Part shown: positions 47,714 to 59,024 of the stretch, in pieces
How the letters are laid out: each line of letters starts with the position of its first letter
How positions within the stretch are numbered: position 1 is the stretch's first letter
DNA from: Vulcanimicrobiota bacterium
Lineage (GTDB): Bacteria; Vulcanimicrobiota; Vulcanimicrobiia; Vulcanimicrobiales; Vulcanimicrobiaceae
Reading direction: 5' to 3'
Length of the DNA stretch: 64,000 nt
NCBI GenBank assembly: GCA_003168375.1
Contig: PMSI01000001.1
Coordinates: 1,116,001-1,180,000 of the forward strand
The notes under the pieces: generated by a model
The model's database searches: none
What the model saw: the letters and a program-made list of their open reading frames with translations, nothing else
What the model was told of the DNA's origin: nothing
Translations under genes and position numbers: made by a program

Positions 47714-49813
47714 TTACCGCGTCGGCTGCGGCCTCGGCGCCATCGTCATCGGGATCCCCGTGGGAGCCGGCGACCCCAGCTTGAAGATCGCGACGGTGTC
47801 ACCGTAGGGGAACGTGAGCTGGAAGTTTCCGCCGGCGGCGACGGCGATGTACTGCTGCCCGTTGACCTCGTAGCTGATCGGCGGTGCGTTCACGCCGGCA
47901 CCGAGGTTGTAGCGCCACAAGCGGGTTCCGGCCTTCGCGTCGAGAGCGTCGAACCAGCCGTTTCCCTCACCGAAGAACACGAGATTGCCGGCCGTCGCGA
48001 GCGCGCCGCCGATGAGCGGCTGCGGCGTCATGTACGTCCACGCGATCTTCCCGGTCTCCGTGTCGATCGCCACGAAGCGCCCGTCTTGCACTCCGTGCGG
48101 CTCGACGTTCGAGAATGCGCTCCCGAGCCGAATGCGGCCCTTCTGATACGCTTCACGCTGCGTGGAGAACCGCATCAGCTGATCCATGCCGAGCACGTAG
48201 ACGTAGTGCGTGTCGGGCGAGTACGCGGGCGGCGACCACTCGGCGCCGCCATTCGCGCCGGGCAGCATGACGACGCCCTTTTTCGTCGGCTGGCTGAACA
48301 TGTTCTTCGACATCGCGACGTACGGATCCGACTTGCGGATCAGCTTGCCGTTTCGCCGATCGACGATGAAGAACCAGCCCACCTTGCCGGCTTCGCCGGC
48401 GGCGGGTATCGTCTGACCGTTCTGGTGAACGTCGAACAGCACGACGTTGCTGGCGGCATCGTAGTCCCACACGTCGTGCTTGATCTCCTGATAGCCCCAT
48501 TTCAGTTTGCCGGTGTGGACGTCGAGCGCGACGATCGAGTCGCTCCACTTGTTGTCGCCGGGCCGATAGCTGCCGTTGAGATCCGGATTCGGATTACCGG
48601 TGGCGAAGATTACAAGCCCGAGCTGCGGGTCGATCGCGGGCGTCGTCCACACCATTCCGCCGCCGCGCTTCCAGGAATCACCACCGTACGTCTTGGGGTC
48701 GGTCGAGTTCCAGCGCCAGCGCTGCTTGCCGTTGCGCGCGTCGTATGCTGCGACGAAGCCGCGAATTGGCCACTCGCCGCCCGCGCTCCCGACGATCACC
48801 ATGCCGTCGTACACCTGCGGGGTCATCGTCTCCGAGTAGCCGACCGACGGATCGGCGACCGTGCTCTGCCAACGCGACTTGCCGGTCACCGCGTCGAGCG
48901 CAAGCAGCTTGTCGTCGAGCGTCAGCACGTACACCATGCCGTAGCCGACCGCGGCGCCGCGGTTGACGGGACCGCAGCAGACCTGGAACGATCCCAGGCT
49001 GTAGGTGCTGTCCCAGATCGTGCGCCCGTTGGTCGCGTCGAGCGCCATCGTCTTCATCTTGTTGTCGACGGTCGGCGTCGTGATGTACATGACGCCGTTG
49101 ACGACGATCGGCGTGGTCTCGAAGCTCGCCGTCATCCCCGTCTGCGCGATCCCGGCGAGCTGCAGCGACCCGACATTGCCGGCATCGATCTGCGTGAGCG
49201 GCGAGTAGCGCGCGTTGTCGTAGGTCCGGCCGGGCAGCACCCAGTTGGCGCCGGCGCTCTGAGCGCCGGTCATCATCGCGTCGGAGACGACGACGTCCGC
49301 GCCGCGCGGCAGCCGCGCATACACTTTGTTCTGCGGCGGCGCGCTGCGCACGATCTCGTTGTTGTTGTTCGCGGGTCCCGGCGCGTTCGTGCCGTGCAGC
49401 GAAACCTGCGCGAGCACGCCCGGCGTCAGCGGCTGGTCACCGGCGGGATAGCCGTTGCGCGAGAGCAGGTACGCGACGACGTCGAGGTATTGCTGCTGGC
49501 TGAGCGAGCCGGGTTTGTCCGCCGGCATCTGCGTGTGGATGAAATTGTACAGGGACGCTGCGGTGCCCGACTTGCCGACGTACGCCTGGAACACCGCGCC
49601 GACGAGCGCCGGCCCGGATTGGCCCTGCAGATTGACGCCGTGACACTGCGAACATTTGGCGCTGTAGACGGCCGCACCGGCCGCCGCCTGGGCCTGGGTG
49701 TAGTGCCCGGTGCGCTGCGCCTCCGAGATGGATCCGGCTAGCAGCACGCCGGCGATCGCCGTGAGCCCGGCGACGACGAGTTTTGCGTTGCGTGACGAGC
49801 GGGCAGTGCGCAT
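47714..49813 (-). CDS. PQQ-dependent dehydrogenase with N-terminal cytochrome c domain
   Basis: This is a 699-residue periplasmic quinoprotein. After the signal, a cytochrome c domain carries the heme motif CSQCH (54-58) and a distal Met candidate in THTQMPADKPGSL. An eight-bladed propeller follows, with repeated W motifs (GKQRWRW, GKLKWGY, GTRLWRY), the adjacent-Cys pair in FQVCCGPVNRG expected for PQQ binding, and the catalytic WDYDAASN. Quinohaemoprotein alcohol dehydrogenases normally put the cytochrome at the C-terminus, so the order is reversed here. It probably oxidises an alcohol or sugar. Electrons could pass to the heme and then to the cupredoxin (34670-35044). Confidence 0.88.
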   Translation of the reverse strand: MRTARSSRNAKLVVAGLTAIAGVLLAGSISEAQRTGHYTQAQAAAGAAVYSAKCSQCHGVNLQGQSGPALVGAVFQAYVGKSGTAASLYNFIHTQMPADKPGSLSQQQYLDVVAYLLSRNGYPAGDQPLTPGVLAQVSLHGTNAPGPANNNNEIVRSAPPQNKVYARLPRGADVVVSDAMMTGAQSAGANWVLPGRTYDNARYSPLTQIDAGNVGSLQLAGIAQTGMTASFETTPIVVNGVMYITTPTVDNKMKTMALDATNGRTIWDSTYSLGSFQVCCGPVNRGAAVGYGMVYVLTLDDKLLALDAVTGKSRWQSTVADPSVGYSETMTPQVYDGMVIVGSAGGEWPIRGFVAAYDARNGKQRWRWNSTDPKTYGGDSWKRGGGMVWTTPAIDPQLGLVIFATGNPNPDLNGSYRPGDNKWSDSIVALDVHTGKLKWGYQEIKHDVWDYDAASNVVLFDVHQNGQTIPAAGEAGKVGWFFIVDRRNGKLIRKSDPYVAMSKNMFSQPTKKGVVMLPGANGGAEWSPPAYSPDTHYVYVLGMDQLMRFSTQREAYQKGRIRLGSAFSNVEPHGVQDGRFVAIDTETGKIAWTYMTPQPLIGGALATAGNLVFFGEGNGWFDALDAKAGTRLWRYNLGAGVNAPPISYEVNGQQYIAVAAGGNFQLTFPYGDTVAIFKLGSPAPTGIPMTMAPRPQPTR

Positions 49814-51743: not shown

Positions 51744-52862
51744 ATGAGTTCGGCGATGGTGACGCGTGCCGAGGCCGGCGTGGGTTCGGCTGAGGATCCT
51801 GTCGAGTACTACTTCGACCAGGCGTGGAGCGATGGGTTGCCGGTCGTGCCGCCGACGCAAGCGAAGATCGACGCGGTCGTCGACGCGCTGGGCGGCGATC
51901 CGGAGTTTTCGGAGGCGCTGATCCCGCCCCGGCGCGGCACCCTGACGCGCGAAGTGCTCGCGATCAACATGGTGATGGCCGGCTGCAAGCCGGAGTACGC
52001 GCCGGTCGTGCGCGCCGCGATGCTCGCGCTGTGCACCAAGCAGTGGAACCTCAACGGCGTGCAGGCGACCACGCACATGGCGGCGCCGCTGCTGATCGTG
52101 AACGGCCCGGTCCGCAATGCGATCGGGATGAACGCCGGCCACAACGTGTTCGGTTCGGGCAACCGCGCCAACGCGACGATCGGGCGCGCGATCCGACTGA
52201 TCCTGCTCACCGTCGGCGGCGCGATCCCAGGCGATCTCGACAAGAGCACGCTGGGACATCCCGGCAAGTACACGTACTGCATCGCCGAGAACGAAGAGCT
52301 GAGCCCGTGGGCGCCGTACCACGTCGAGCACGGCATGGCGCCCGAGGACAGCACGGTGTTCGTCATTGCGGCCGAGCCGCCGCACAGCGTGGTGAATCAC
52401 GTCGCGAACGACGCGCAGGGCGTCCTCGACAGCATCGTCTCGGCGATGAGCACGTTCGCGCACAACAACGCCGTCGCGAGCGGCTCGTGCGCGGTCGTGA
52501 TCGGGCCGGAGCACGCGACGACGATCGCCTCCTCCGGGTTCTCGCGGCTCGACGTGCGCAGCTATCTCTGGATGAACGCGGGCAACACCTGGGGTGAGAT
52601 CAGCTTCAACGATCGCTACGCCGGCGGCGGCAAGGTCTACAACAAGGCGCTGCCCGCGTGGTACAAGCGCGAGACGAACGCGCGGATCCCGATCGTGCCG
52701 ACGCCGGACGACATCCATCTGTTCGTCGCCGGCGGCGCAGCAGGCCGCTTCTCGGCGTTCATCCCGGGCTGGGGCCGCATGACGAGCCCCGTCCTCCGCA
52801 AGATCGACGGCAGCGCGCCGCCGACCGGCGCGGTGTGCGCCGACGGAACGTGCGCACTCTAG
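51744..52862 (+). CDS. DGLPVVPPT-family protein, probable partner of the UGSC selenoprotein
   Basis: This is a 372-residue cytoplasmic protein with WSDGLPVVPPTQAKID near residue 28, INMVMAGCKPEYAPVV, THMAAPLLIVNGP, GSGNRANATIGRAIRLI and HPGKYTYCIAENEE. This sequence family is, as I recall, encoded next to or fused with UGSC-motif proteins in other bacteria. The C-terminus carries a Cys pair (VCADGTCAL) that could be redox active. The UGSC-type gene lies about 1.8 kb downstream (54647-55183), separated by two low-GC genes. The reaction is not known; redox or dehalogenation-like chemistry has been suggested for UGSC-type proteins. Confidence 0.65.
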   Translation: MSSAMVTRAEAGVGSAEDPVEYYFDQAWSDGLPVVPPTQAKIDAVVDALGGDPEFSEALIPPRRGTLTREVLAINMVMAGCKPEYAPVVRAAMLALCTKQWNLNGVQATTHMAAPLLIVNGPVRNAIGMNAGHNVFGSGNRANATIGRAIRLILLTVGGAIPGDLDKSTLGHPGKYTYCIAENEELSPWAPYHVEHGMAPEDSTVFVIAAEPPHSVVNHVANDAQGVLDSIVSAMSTFAHNNAVASGSCAVVIGPEHATTIASSGFSRLDVRSYLWMNAGNTWGEISFNDRYAGGGKVYNKALPAWYKRETNARIPIVPTPDDIHLFVAGGAAGRFSAFIPGWGRMTSPVLRKIDGSAPPTGAVCADGTCAL

Positions 52863-52884
52863 CGACCATGGTGAGGTAAAGCCA

Positions 52885-53472
52885 ATGCCCGTAAGGCGCG
52901 TGCTAAAGCTGAATGGATACGCAGGTGGCGCTGATCAGGTCAGTGCTGACTACCGATTTGCGCCGCATGTCGATTCAATGGGTGCACAGTGCTTCTCGAG
53001 ACGGCCTAAGCTTGAACTGGGCGACTTAGTGTACCTGTGCACCATGTACAAGTCGGCTGATCGAACGACCAAACGTGCGATCTATGGCCGCGGAGCCGTG
53101 GATCGCGTTCAAGTCGACCACGATGTCATGCCGAGCGGGCTTTTCGACGGCATCCTCCGGAAGCCGGATCGAATTACCGATTGGTTTCGCGTTGTATGGC
53201 TTAGAGACATTGAAATTGTGCAATGTGCGTTGTGCGATGCACCGCATCCATACGACGCAGCTGCGTTTGCGCACCCGCTTTCGCTGAGGTCGACGCGACA
53301 AGGGAGCCATTTCTTTCCGCCGGAAAACCAGATGGCGGAAATCGATGACGCATTGAATCATAACTTCGAGCGATATGGTGCCGAGCGCCGCGAGAGGCCG
53401 GATGGTATTTGGTGGAACGACTCCTTGCCACATGAACGACACTTGTTTCGAAGCGACTTTGAGCAAGACTAA
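52885..53472 (+). CDS. Hypothetical protein, possible PUA/EVE-like region
   Basis: This 195-residue protein has clearly lower GC than the flanking genes. It contains LGDLVYLCTMYKSADRTTKRAIYGRGAV and IEIVQCALCDAP, a pattern resembling EVE/PUA-type beta-barrels, then an acidic tail. No enzyme motif is seen. Together with the next gene it separates the DGLPVVPPT gene from the UGSC gene and looks acquired. Confidence 0.5.
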   Translation: MPVRRVLKLNGYAGGADQVSADYRFAPHVDSMGAQCFSRRPKLELGDLVYLCTMYKSADRTTKRAIYGRGAVDRVQVDHDVMPSGLFDGILRKPDRITDWFRVVWLRDIEIVQCALCDAPHPYDAAAFAHPLSLRSTRQGSHFFPPENQMAEIDDALNHNFERYGAERRERPDGIWWNDSLPHERHLFRSDFEQD

Positions 53473-53599
53473 GTAGAGAGGTGAGGCGTCTCAGGCTCTC
53501 AGCGGTGACGTGTCTTTGGCTCGACTGTCGCCTTTAGCGACGCAAACGAATCTAGCCATGTGCTCCCGTCGTTGCGTCGCCAGCGATTAGGCGCAATCG

Positions 53600-54511
53600 C
53601 TAACGATAGTAGAGGGTGGTCTGGCCCAGTCGCGGGTGCGTTAACGGGATCGTAATCGAACCGCCTTTCACGGCGAATGTCGCGGGAAACGGCTTTTGTC
53701 CATTTCGGCAGTCAGCATTCATCTCGTCGACGGTGAGAGAATAGACGAGTGCGCCGTTCATCGACACCGGTCCGGTCACGCGCAAGGCGATTGCGGTGTG
53801 CTTACCGCCGGACCAGGTCCATTGATATTGGTCGCCGGCCTTTGGAACGTACTTCGATGTGATGACGCTGTAGCCGCCGTACGCTGTTGGCGACGGTAGC
53901 AAGCCCATCCACTTGCGTTGGAATGCTACCCAATAGGTGCACTGCCCATAGATTCGACTGGATATCGCCGGGATGACCTGCTCGTACTGCACAGCTTCCA
54001 GGCCGGTTGCAGTACGGATCCTCAGTGAAGTGGAGACTCCTCCGGCAGGCCATGGCATTGTCGGATCGAGCGTGATCGTCGCCGATTGCCAACTGGTGAT
54101 TCGCACAGCCTGTCCGTTCAGCGTGGCGGTCCCCATTGCGTTGCCGAAGTTCTTTCCGTAGACCGTCCAAGGGTACACGCCGGGCGTATCGTTGACGACA
54201 CGATCATCGTTGTAGTTGCTGCCGCAGTTCCCCATCGCAGCGAGTCCATTGCTGATGCCGGCGTCTGCATTCGATATTCCGCCGATGGAACTGATCTGCG
54301 GTGTCGGTATCGGGGTAGGCCGTGGGGTCGGAGTCGGGATTGGTTTCGCAGGCGCGGGCGGAAGCTTTGTGGCGGGAGCAAGCGCGGGTGCTTCCATCGG
54401 CGGTGTCGCTGTGGCTGCGCTCTGGGCCGGCACGTAAGATGATCTGCCTCCGCAACCCGGCAGAAACGCCACCATGAGTGTAACGACGGCGTAACAAAGA
54501 AGGCGTTTCAT
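53600..54511 (-). CDS. Lipoprotein with IPT/TIG-like and CHAP-like domains
   Basis: This is a 303-residue lipoprotein. The signal MKRLLCYAVVTLMVAFLPGC has the lipobox LPGC and is followed by a long Pro/Thr/Ala linker. The middle, YPWTVYGKNFGNAMGTATLNGQAVRITSWQSATITLDPTMPW, resembles an IPT/TIG Ig-like fold. The C-terminal part has GQCTYWVAFQRKW and later SGGKHTAIALRV. This matches the Cys and His positions of CHAP amidases (GxCTxYV ... GHVAxV), which cleave peptidoglycan cross-bridges. Lower GC than neighbouring DNA supports acquisition. Cell-wall hydrolase activity is inferred. Confidence 0.55.
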   Translation of the reverse strand: MKRLLCYAVVTLMVAFLPGCGGRSSYVPAQSAATATPPMEAPALAPATKLPPAPAKPIPTPTPRPTPIPTPQISSIGGISNADAGISNGLAAMGNCGSNYNDDRVVNDTPGVYPWTVYGKNFGNAMGTATLNGQAVRITSWQSATITLDPTMPWPAGGVSTSLRIRTATGLEAVQYEQVIPAISSRIYGQCTYWVAFQRKWMGLLPSPTAYGGYSVITSKYVPKAGDQYQWTWSGGKHTAIALRVTGPVSMNGALVYSLTVDEMNADCRNGQKPFPATFAVKGGSITIPLTHPRLGQTTLYYR

Positions 54512-54646
54512 TTTCTGGGACTCGAACATTCTGCCGGATATGGCGGGTCCGGGATCATAACACGTTCGTGCTGCGGAAGCAAGTGGCCCTTAGAACGTTG
54601 GCTCGTCCGTGCCGGAACGCGTGCGCTTTTCCGCGAAGAACGGGTC

Positions 54647-55183
54647 GTGGAACACCGCATCTACGATCCGCGCGGCGAGGTGCACGCCGAGCACCGCGAC
54701 CTCTCGCCGCGGGTTGCTTCGTTCGCCGGCTTGCGCCTTGGGGTTCTCGACAACACGAAGTGGAACGGCTGGCGCATCCTCGAGCGCACGGCGCAGCTGC
54801 TCGCCGAGCACACGCCGTTCGCGTCGGTGACGCGCTACAAGAAGGAGAGCTTCTCGGTCAACGCGGAGGACGAGCTGATCGCGCGGATCGCGGCGGAGAA
54901 CGACGTCGCGTTGATCGGGATCGGTGATTGAGGGAGCTGCACGTCGTGCTGTACGTACGACGCCGTCCGCCTGGAGGAGTCCGGCGTTCCCGCAGCCGTC
55001 GTCGTCACCACCGTCTTCGAACATGAGTCCGCCGTCCAGCGCGCCGCGCTCGGCATGGACGCGCTGCGGCCGGTCGTCGTGACGCACCCGCTGAGCACCC
55101 TCACCGCCGAGCAACTCGACGCCCGCGCCCACGAAGCCGCATCGCAAGTGCTCGCGATTTGGCAAGGGGCAGCGTCCGCGTGA
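54647..55183 (+). CDS. UGSC-family protein, predicted selenoprotein (Sec at the in-frame TGA 54929-54931)
   Basis: Read straight through one TGA, the frame encodes 178 residues: 94 residues ending ENDVALIGIGD, then TGA, then GSCTSCCTYDAVRLEESG to the final TGA at 55181. The residues around the stop spell U-G-S-C, the motif that names this selenoprotein family. The second half continues with family sequence (PAAVVVTTVFEH, VVVTHPL). A normal stop would leave 94 residues lacking the active site, and a downstream frame without a good start. A SECIS-like hairpin follows at 54942-54962. The start GTG 54647 (VEHRIYDPRGEV) fits the family. Whether the host has the Sec machinery cannot be seen here. 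Confidence 0.82.
54942..54962 (+). promoter_or_regulatory. Predicted bacterial SECIS element
   Basis: CGTCGT-GCTGTACGT-ACGACG forms a 6-bp stem, extendable by a G-T and a C-G pair, with a G at or next to the first base of the apical loop. The loop begins 16 nt after the TGA. Published bacterial SECIS criteria, as I recall them, are a loop 16-37 nt downstream with a G in its first two positions, and this hairpin meets them. Confidence 0.6.
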
Positions 55184-56982: not shown

Positions 56983-58209
56983 CTACTTCACCGTAACCAG
57001 CCCGACGCGGTTGACGCCGCTGCAGGCCATCGCGATATTGCCGTCGCGGGTGACCATCATGTTGCGGACGACGCCGCCGCCCGACGGGATCGCCCACGTC
57101 TGGAAGCGTTGCGCTGCCGGATCGAAGCGGACCAGCGTGTTCGGACGCACGCCGGATTCGCTGTACCAGATCGCGCCTTTCAAGAACACGATGCCGTACG
57201 GTCGCGAATTCGGGCCGCCGGGCGACGGAAACTCGGTGACGCTGCCGGTCTTCGGATCGAAGCGGCCGAGGTAGCCGCGCGCGTAGTCGGAGTACCACAT
57301 CACGTCGTCGGGTTCGATCGCGATCCGGCGCGGGCGCGCGCCGGCGTTCGGCAGCGGGTACTCGCGGATCGCCATCGTCGCCGGGTCGATGCTCGCGATC
57401 TTGTTGCTGCCGAACTCGACGTACCACGGCACGTTCTTCGAGTCGATGACCATCCCGTACGGATTCGAGCGCGCCGTCGGCGAGGTGACCAGCTTGACAT
57501 CACCGGTCTTCGGCACGAGGCGTCCGAGCATATTGGCGCCTTGCACGGTGAACCACAGCGTGCCGTTGCGATCGAACAGCGGCGTGTGCGGATCACGCGC
57601 CGCCGGATCGAGCTTGTACTCGGTGAACGTGCCGGTGCGCGGGTCGAGCTTCCCGATGTATGCTTTGAAGTTCGCGGTGAACCAGATGTTGCCGTCGGCG
57701 TCTTCGACGAGCCCATGCGGGCCTGAATCCGCGACGCGTGCACGGTACTCTTTGAACGTGCCGGTCTTCGGATCGAGCCGGCCGAGCACGTTCGCCATCT
57801 GACCGGTGTACCAAATGGAGCCGTCCGCCGCGGCGAGCGGATCGTGCGGCCGCGACCCTGCGGTCGGGACGACCCACTCCTGAATCGACGCCTGCGCGCT
57901 GCCGGGGATCAGCACCGCGACCGGCTCCGCCTTCGGCGGAAAGCTCTTCGTCAGATACGCGACGACGGCGTTCGTCTGATCCGGCGGAAGTTTCGCGCCG
58001 GCGTTCACCATCATCGCGACCACGTTGCGCCAACCGTCGCGGTCGTAGCCGGCGCGCGTCACGCGGTCGATGCTGTGGCACGTCGCGCAGCTCGCGGCGA
58101 CGATCTCCTTGCCGGGACCGTCTGGGAGCGGCGGCGTTTGGCTGCGCACCGGTAGCGCGCTGCAGAGCAGCACCGCAGCGATCAGGGGCAAGGCGTAGCG
58201 TATCGTCAT
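56983..58209 (-). CDS. Cytochrome c domain fused to a virginiamycin-B-lyase-type (Vgb) beta-propeller
   Basis: This is a 408-residue periplasmic protein. A signal peptide precedes a cytochrome c domain with CATCH (41-45) and a possible distal Met in VVAMMVNAG. From about residue 115 it is a seven-bladed propeller with strong Vgb repeats: GSIWYTGQMANVLGRLDPKTGTFKEY, GNIWFTANFKAYIGKLDPRTGTFTEY, GTLWFTVQGANMLGRLVPKTG. True Vgb lyases use a His/Glu pair to open streptogramins; here the fusion to a heme suggests an oxidoreductase or electron-transfer sensor instead. The combination resembles the PQQ dehydrogenase of this window in design. Confidence 0.8.
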   Translation of the reverse strand: MTIRYALPLIAAVLLCSALPVRSQTPPLPDGPGKEIVAASCATCHSIDRVTRAGYDRDGWRNVVAMMVNAGAKLPPDQTNAVVAYLTKSFPPKAEPVAVLIPGSAQASIQEWVVPTAGSRPHDPLAAADGSIWYTGQMANVLGRLDPKTGTFKEYRARVADSGPHGLVEDADGNIWFTANFKAYIGKLDPRTGTFTEYKLDPAARDPHTPLFDRNGTLWFTVQGANMLGRLVPKTGDVKLVTSPTARSNPYGMVIDSKNVPWYVEFGSNKIASIDPATMAIREYPLPNAGARPRRIAIEPDDVMWYSDYARGYLGRFDPKTGSVTEFPSPGGPNSRPYGIVFLKGAIWYSESGVRPNTLVRFDPAAQRFQTWAIPSGGGVVRNMMVTRDGNIAMACSGVNRVGLVTVK

Positions 58210-58298: not shown

Positions 58299-58327
58299 TT
58301 GACTCGCGTATCGGTACGCGATACGAT
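58299..58327 (+). promoter_or_regulatory. HigBA promoter with operator palindrome (module 2)
   Basis: TTGACT (58299-58304) and TACGAT (58322-58327) are separated by exactly 17 bp, as in module 1. The palindrome GTATCG-GTACG-CGATAC (58308-58324) fills the spacer and overlaps the -10. HigA binding would exclude RNA polymerase. Confidence 0.75.
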
Positions 58328-58334
58328 AGGCGGG

Positions 58335-58622
58335 GTGGAGTTCAAGGATCGCGGGACGGAGGACATCTTTGACGGCAACCCGAGCAAGGCTGCCCGCCGT
58401 ACGCTGCCTACGGAACTCCACGTAGCCGCAACCGAGTTGCTCGACTCGCTGGGCGCAGCCACCACGCTGGGCGACTTGGCTGCGATTTCCGGAGCGTACT
58501 TCGAAAAGCTCAAGGGTGACCGTAAAGGCCAATACTCGCTCCGGATAAACAAGTACTATCGCGTCTGCTTCAACTGGACCGACGACGGTGCTCTCGACGT
58601 CGAGATCACAGACTACCACTGA
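58335..58622 (+). CDS. higB: HigB-family RelE-like toxin (module 2)
   Basis: This 95-residue HigB toxin is similar to module 1 in the C-terminal strand pattern QYSLRINKYYRVCFNW ... DVEITDYH and in the N-terminal helix AARRTLPTELHVAATELLDSL. GTG 58335 is only 7 nt after the -10 hexamer, so the transcript is probably leaderless. The core EFKDRGTEDIFDG replaces the DFADRATADLYNG of the other copy, so the two toxins are paralogues. HigA must be made to neutralise it. Confidence 0.85.
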   Translation: MEFKDRGTEDIFDGNPSKAARRTLPTELHVAATELLDSLGAATTLGDLAAISGAYFEKLKGDRKGQYSLRINKYYRVCFNWTDDGALDVEITDYH

Positions 58623-58682
58623 TTCTCAGTATTCTTTTCTACGCTCGCCTATGTGAGCGACTCTTATAACATGAGTTGTAGT

Positions 58683-59024
58683 ATGCGTCTTCCTCGCAAC
58701 CGCCGGCCGACGCCGCCCGGCCGAATCCTCGTGCGCCAGTTCCTCGAACCACTTGGCGTCACGCTGACGGACTTCGCAGGCCGCATCGGTGTCACGCGCG
58801 CACGTCTAAGCGAGATCGCCAACGGCAAACGCGGTGTCACGCCTGACACGGCGCTGCGTCTCGGCCAAGTCCTTGGAACCTCCCCTGTGTTCTGGCTGAA
58901 CCTTCAGCTGAACGTCGATCTGTGGGATGCGCTGCACTCCGATACCGCTGCCGAGATCCGTCGTCTCAAGCCCGTCGCATCGGTCCGCGGCGAAGGCCGC
59001 ATCGCCGTACGCGCCGCGTCTTAA
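58683..59024 (+). CDS. higA: HigA-family antitoxin (module 2)
   Basis: This 113-residue XRE antitoxin has RRPTPPGRILVRQFLEPLGVTLTDFAGRIGVTRARLSEIANGKRGVTPDTALRLGQVLG, the same HigA core as module 1. It lies 60 bp after the toxin, a wider gap than the 10 bp of module 1. ATGs at 58671 and 58683 are both possible; the latter begins MRLPRNRRPTPPG like the first copy. Confidence 0.85.
   Translation: MRLPRNRRPTPPGRILVRQFLEPLGVTLTDFAGRIGVTRARLSEIANGKRGVTPDTALRLGQVLGTSPVFWLNLQLNVDLWDALHSDTAAEIRRLKPVASVRGEGRIAVRAAS

Follow-up and report, generated by a model that had tools for sequence, protein, structure and literature searches.

Within a 64,000-nucleotide stretch of a Vulcanimicrobiota genome (hereafter the window), we identified a gene that very probably encodes a selenoprotein of the UGSC family, with an in-frame TGA read as selenocysteine (Sec). 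The gene is a further member of a named, functionally uncharacterised family, for which selenoprotein status is expected; less expected are a near-constant, unnamed partner gene and a likeness to the selenium domain of glycine and proline reductases. UGSC-containing selenoproteins have been described since at least 2008, in the GOS selenoproteome (PMC2398784), have their own Pfam (PF24696) and NCBIfam (NF041046) models, and are still presented as uncharacterised in the UGSC passage of a 2026 review (PMC13188914). The passages on UGSC that we consulted, those of the 2008 paper among them, do not mention the partner gene, and our literature search found no paper combining Eremiobacterota with selenocysteine. 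Three features make up the predicted selenoprotein gene:

54647-55183, forward strand: UGSC-family selenoprotein gene, supported by matches to PF24696 and NF041046 and by purifying selection on the codons before and after the TGA
54929-54931, forward strand: in-frame TGA predicted to be read as selenocysteine (the U of UGSC), supported by TGA in close relatives, TGC/TGT in cysteine homologues and the Sec machinery of the genome
54942-54962, forward strand: bSECIS-like hairpin with an 8-bp stem and the loop UGUAC, supported by folding, covariation and comparison with synonymous recodings

The read-through product has 178 residues with Sec at position 95, and runs from GTG 54647, the sole ATG/GTG/TTG start within the open frame, past the TGA to the second stop of the original prediction (TGA, 55181-55183). 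The motif that it had read, GIGD-U-GSCTSC with the TGA exactly between GIGD and GSCTSC, is present in the sequence, and its claim of family-like sequence on both sides was borne out by two matches that span the TGA and exceed their curated cut-offs: PF24696 (UGSC) at 195.2 bits over residues 5-173 (cut-off 25) and NF041046 (UGSC family (seleno)protein) at 142.8 bits (cut-off 125). The window gene thus has the sequence scores, the U-G-S-C motif with its TGA-encoded U, and the SECIS in common with the described family, and differs from it in nothing essential.

The host genome (4.43 Mb, 97% complete) carries the components of a bacterial Sec pathway, namely tRNA-Sec with anticodon TCA (UCA; C4:548423, 76 bits), selB (300 bits) and selA (492 bits) about 20 nt apart, and selD (377 bits; L019, C4:1443085-1444011), so that SelA, SelB and SelD, which had been predicted to lie elsewhere in the genome, are all accounted for and neither selA/selB nor tRNA-Sec is missing. 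SelD itself is probably a selenoprotein, since its gene carries one in-frame TGA. Across the taxonomic family the co-occurrence of UGSC and selA is consistent, and it is weak support because selA is found in 82 of the 99 genomes; selA was not found in one UGSC-bearing relative (G089), whose genome is 83% complete.

Directly downstream of the UGA stands the hairpin, in which 54942-54949 pair with 54955-54962 (8 pairs) around a 5-nt loop (54950-54954) whose second base is G, with 18 nt separating the TGA from the loop. In bacterial SECIS elements the loop lies 16-37 nt after the UGA and has a G among its first two bases. The hairpin foreseen in the original prediction is therefore present and both descriptions of its loop fit this rule, but the fold gave 8 pairs and a 5-nt loop rather than 6 pairs and a 9-nt loop, a distance of 18 rather than 16 nt, and the G second rather than first. 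Taken alone, the hairpin has an energy of -11.9 kcal/mol (z -3.6), equalled by 1 of 200 shuffles; the full 47-nt segment is of ordinary stability (z 0.14). Comparison across homologues gives the stronger evidence. Covariation was scored on a hand-picked set (A3) of 45 of the 70 distinct TGA sequences, from which near-duplicates and a degenerate copy (L106) had been dropped. Here 92.4% of the cells are paired in a 7-pair stem, 24 cells are changed on both sides, and the true pairing scores 0.313 versus 0.01-0.09 for slid pairings; the fuller TGA set averaged much the same, with 6.5 of 7 pairs. Because the hairpin sits in coding sequence, we used synonymous recodings as the comparison: the mean energy over 67 TGA sequences is -11.6 kcal/mol versus -5.2 for their recodings, and at the same site in nine Cys sequences it is -3.4 versus -3.75 kcal/mol. 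Strong in TGA and weak in Cys sequences, the hairpin tracks the Sec codon and not just the protein family. The loop bases G54951 and U54952 are each kept in 69 of 70 TGA homologues. Since it covaries, is far stronger than the recodings and is missing from the Cys-encoding homologues, the element behaves as a bacterial SECIS, on which SelB, bound just after the UGA, would place Sec-tRNA(Sec) at codon 95.

The TGA itself is conserved. UGSC is present in 13 of the 99 genomes of the taxonomic family, where 15 of 17 matches contain exactly one TGA and the other two, which are divergent, have Cys (GHCSTC). Phylum-wide, UGSC occurs in 18 of 149 genomes, and the Pfam scan returned one TGA in 26 of 29 matches, the rest being two Cys forms and one fragment that stops short of this position. 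Among the matches listed for loci fetched via the partner, the aligned codon is TGA in 61 and TGC/TGT in 7, with the Cys codons in Mycobacterium, Planotetraspora and Roseicella. Between the window and its close relatives dN is much lower than dS both before and after the TGA (against L025, dN/dS of 0.039/0.309 upstream and 0.020/0.362 downstream), a sign of purifying selection. These close relatives have TGA, and the pattern against which the original prediction had warned, close relatives with TGC or TGT and a degenerate hairpin, was not seen.

Under the standard code TGA is a stop, and the UGSC gene of the window is parted from its usual neighbour, two facts that would suit a real stop or a sequencing error and hence a pseudogene or a truncated protein. 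The identical TGA, however, occurs in many independent genomes, the codons downstream of it are constrained as much as the upstream ones or more, other lineages encode Cys at this very position, and the genome holds the Sec machinery. Because the TGA recurs, alternates with TGC/TGT and is flanked by low dN/dS on both sides, we regard a pseudogene or an error as very unlikely. The frame by itself would also be compatible with another recoding of TGA, as Trp for example, or with unspecific read-through, but here Cys codons and not Trp codons replace the TGA in homologues, TGA also serves as the terminal stop of the same gene, and a Sec tRNA and a covarying hairpin are present; we consider such recoding more improbable still than a stop.

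Upstream of the UGSC gene lies the second member of the pair:

51744-52862, forward strand: gene for the 372-aa partner protein of UGSC, a same-strand neighbour of UGSC in relatives and in 69 of 80 loci
52836-52853, forward strand: CADGTC (CxDGxC) C-terminal tail of the partner, conserved in the close subfamily

The partner matched no Pfam or NCBIfam model, and its homologues matched no Pfam model. Among the window's relatives, most loci with UGSC, divergent ones included, have the partner next to it. With the partner alone as bait, a count that is blind to UGSC genes without a partner, we collected 80 loci (L038-L117) from many phyla, out of at least 583 confirmed candidates; among these matches listed, UGSC lies on the same strand in 69, in either order and nearly always within a few hundred bases, which suggests that the partner is a near-constant neighbour of UGSC genes. 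The 11 listed loci without UGSC include seven from Poribacteria, and some lie close to contig ends. Since some homologues, those of Poribacteria, have no UGSC within 4 kb, the partner can seemingly act alone or with another protein. Its CxDGxC tail, a possible redox dithiol, is absent from the distant partner subfamily. In two loci (L029 and L030) the partner lacks CxDGxC, and it is UGSC that has a C-terminal extension with this motif. By eye, the extension in these two genes (L029:1432-2232, forward strand; L030:1189-2016, reverse strand) is NifU-like, and it may correspond to the fusion of UGSC to an unknown domain noted in the UGSC passage of the 2008 paper (PMC2398784). A relationship between the partner and UGSC itself was considered and rejected, as profile comparison shows the two to be unrelated. 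When the UGSC and partner profiles were searched against PDB sequences, no credible relative emerged. For the partner model (pLDDT 75), class I fumarases and Toblerone-fold hydrolases came out as weakly similar, with a best Z of 4.7, too low for us to claim a fold.

The AlphaFold model of UGSC, with a pLDDT of 90.3, shows a Rossmann/flavodoxin/CheY-type alpha/beta sandwich in which a helix with Sec at its start follows a central strand. Its structural matches (Z 8-10.7) are spread over many unrelated families and so give the topology only. Because NCBIfam returned a weak GrdB/GrdF match over the Sec region, we compared UGSC with GrdB/PrdB (the glycine, sarcosine, betaine and D-proline reductases, PF07355), and because the collected PF07355 matches stop just before Sec, this was done by profile, with GrdB/PrdB-type proteins collected, extended through their TGA and aligned to UGSC by hhalign. 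The deep profiles matched with a probability of 94.6% (E 6.7e-8), Sec on Sec; the value was 65% with eight motif columns masked, only 42% in a shallower first comparison, and below 1% in the controls (reversed and 30 column-shuffled). Both share the order strand, U-x-x-C, helix, strand, and common ancestry of the two Sec domains is likely, not proven. Unlike GrdB, UGSC consists of one small domain and lacks the remainder of that protein, and by the same profile test the partner of UGSC has no relationship to GrdB or GrdE (0.2% and 0.6%). The UGSC protein does not match the PF07355 model, nor did the window's genome yield any PF07355 match, and the Sec-loop homology supports a protein that works like GrdB/PrdB, not membership in PF07355. 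PrdB/GrdB-like genes were also seen in relatives of the same taxonomic family (L118-L122), and those that were read through have an in-frame TGA.

UGSC might instead be a general oxidoreductase selenoprotein of thioredoxin fold, with no kinship to GrdB/PrdB and with a function independent of the partner. The UxxC motif, which UGSC shares with thioredoxin-like UxxC selenoproteins, is typical of redox proteins with that fold, and a likely thioredoxin-like fold is stated for UGSC in the part of the 2008 paper that deals with it (PMC2398784). The predicted fold of UGSC, as modelled with a pLDDT of 90, differs from theirs, and thioredoxin does not appear among the 50 structural matches listed; kinship with GrdB/PrdB is favoured by the profile match, and the strong pairing of the two genes speaks against independence. 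We therefore hold a thioredoxin-fold protein of this kind to be unlikely, although well ahead of a stop or another recoding of the TGA in probability.

We tentatively propose, as a possibility somewhat short of even chances, that UGSC supplies the selenium subunit of a two-protein reductase so far unrecognised, in which a minimal GrdB/PrdB-like Sec domain would act with an unnamed partner family spread over many phyla, Cys versions in Mycobacterium included. UGSC would form a single alpha/beta domain that holds the Sec-Gly-Ser-Cys loop where a helix starts after a central strand, the arrangement also found in the Sec domain of GrdB/PrdB, and together with the 372-aa partner it would make up a two-part redox enzyme whose substrate would be a small organic molecule, perhaps a carboxylic or CoA-linked one. 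Sec would attack or reduce the substrate, or attack a disulfide, Cys98 would resolve the selenenyl intermediate, and the CxDGxC tail, carried by the partner or fused to UGSC, or else thioredoxin, would restore the selenol; this GrdB-like cycle we put forward with the same reserve. Genes for CoA-transferase III, TctC or lactate racemase lie next to the pair in some other hosts, and the CoA-transferase neighbours hint at organic-acid metabolism. The pairing is a useful functional lead, and the role of UGSC becomes directly testable through its near-constant partner, the Cys versions that cultivated Mycobacterium and Roseicella carry, and the likely kinship to the glycine and proline reductases.

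In the window the pair is split by an insert, delimited by blastn against three relatives (L064, L025 and L027):

52859-54647, no strand assigned: insert of about 1.79 kb between the partner and UGSC genes
52885-53472, forward strand: 195-aa open reading frame of unknown family, within the insert
53600-54529, reverse strand: CHAP-domain-like gene, within the insert

The gap between the two genes is 19 bp in two close relatives (L064 and L025) versus about 1.79 kb here. Neither insert gene was found in the relatives' loci, and the flanks show no repeats resembling a mobile element. Because the insert splits the pair and the search upstream of the UGSC gene in the window found no sigma-70-like promoter, expression of this gene there is a prediction only. 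Elsewhere in the window, ARAGORN called a tRNA-Arg(ccg) at 49243-49313 (reverse strand), which had no Rfam match at the gathering threshold, a gene pair at 58299-59024 encodes a HigB-like toxin and an HTH antitoxin, and 56983-58209 (reverse strand) encodes a Virginiamycin B lyase family protein.
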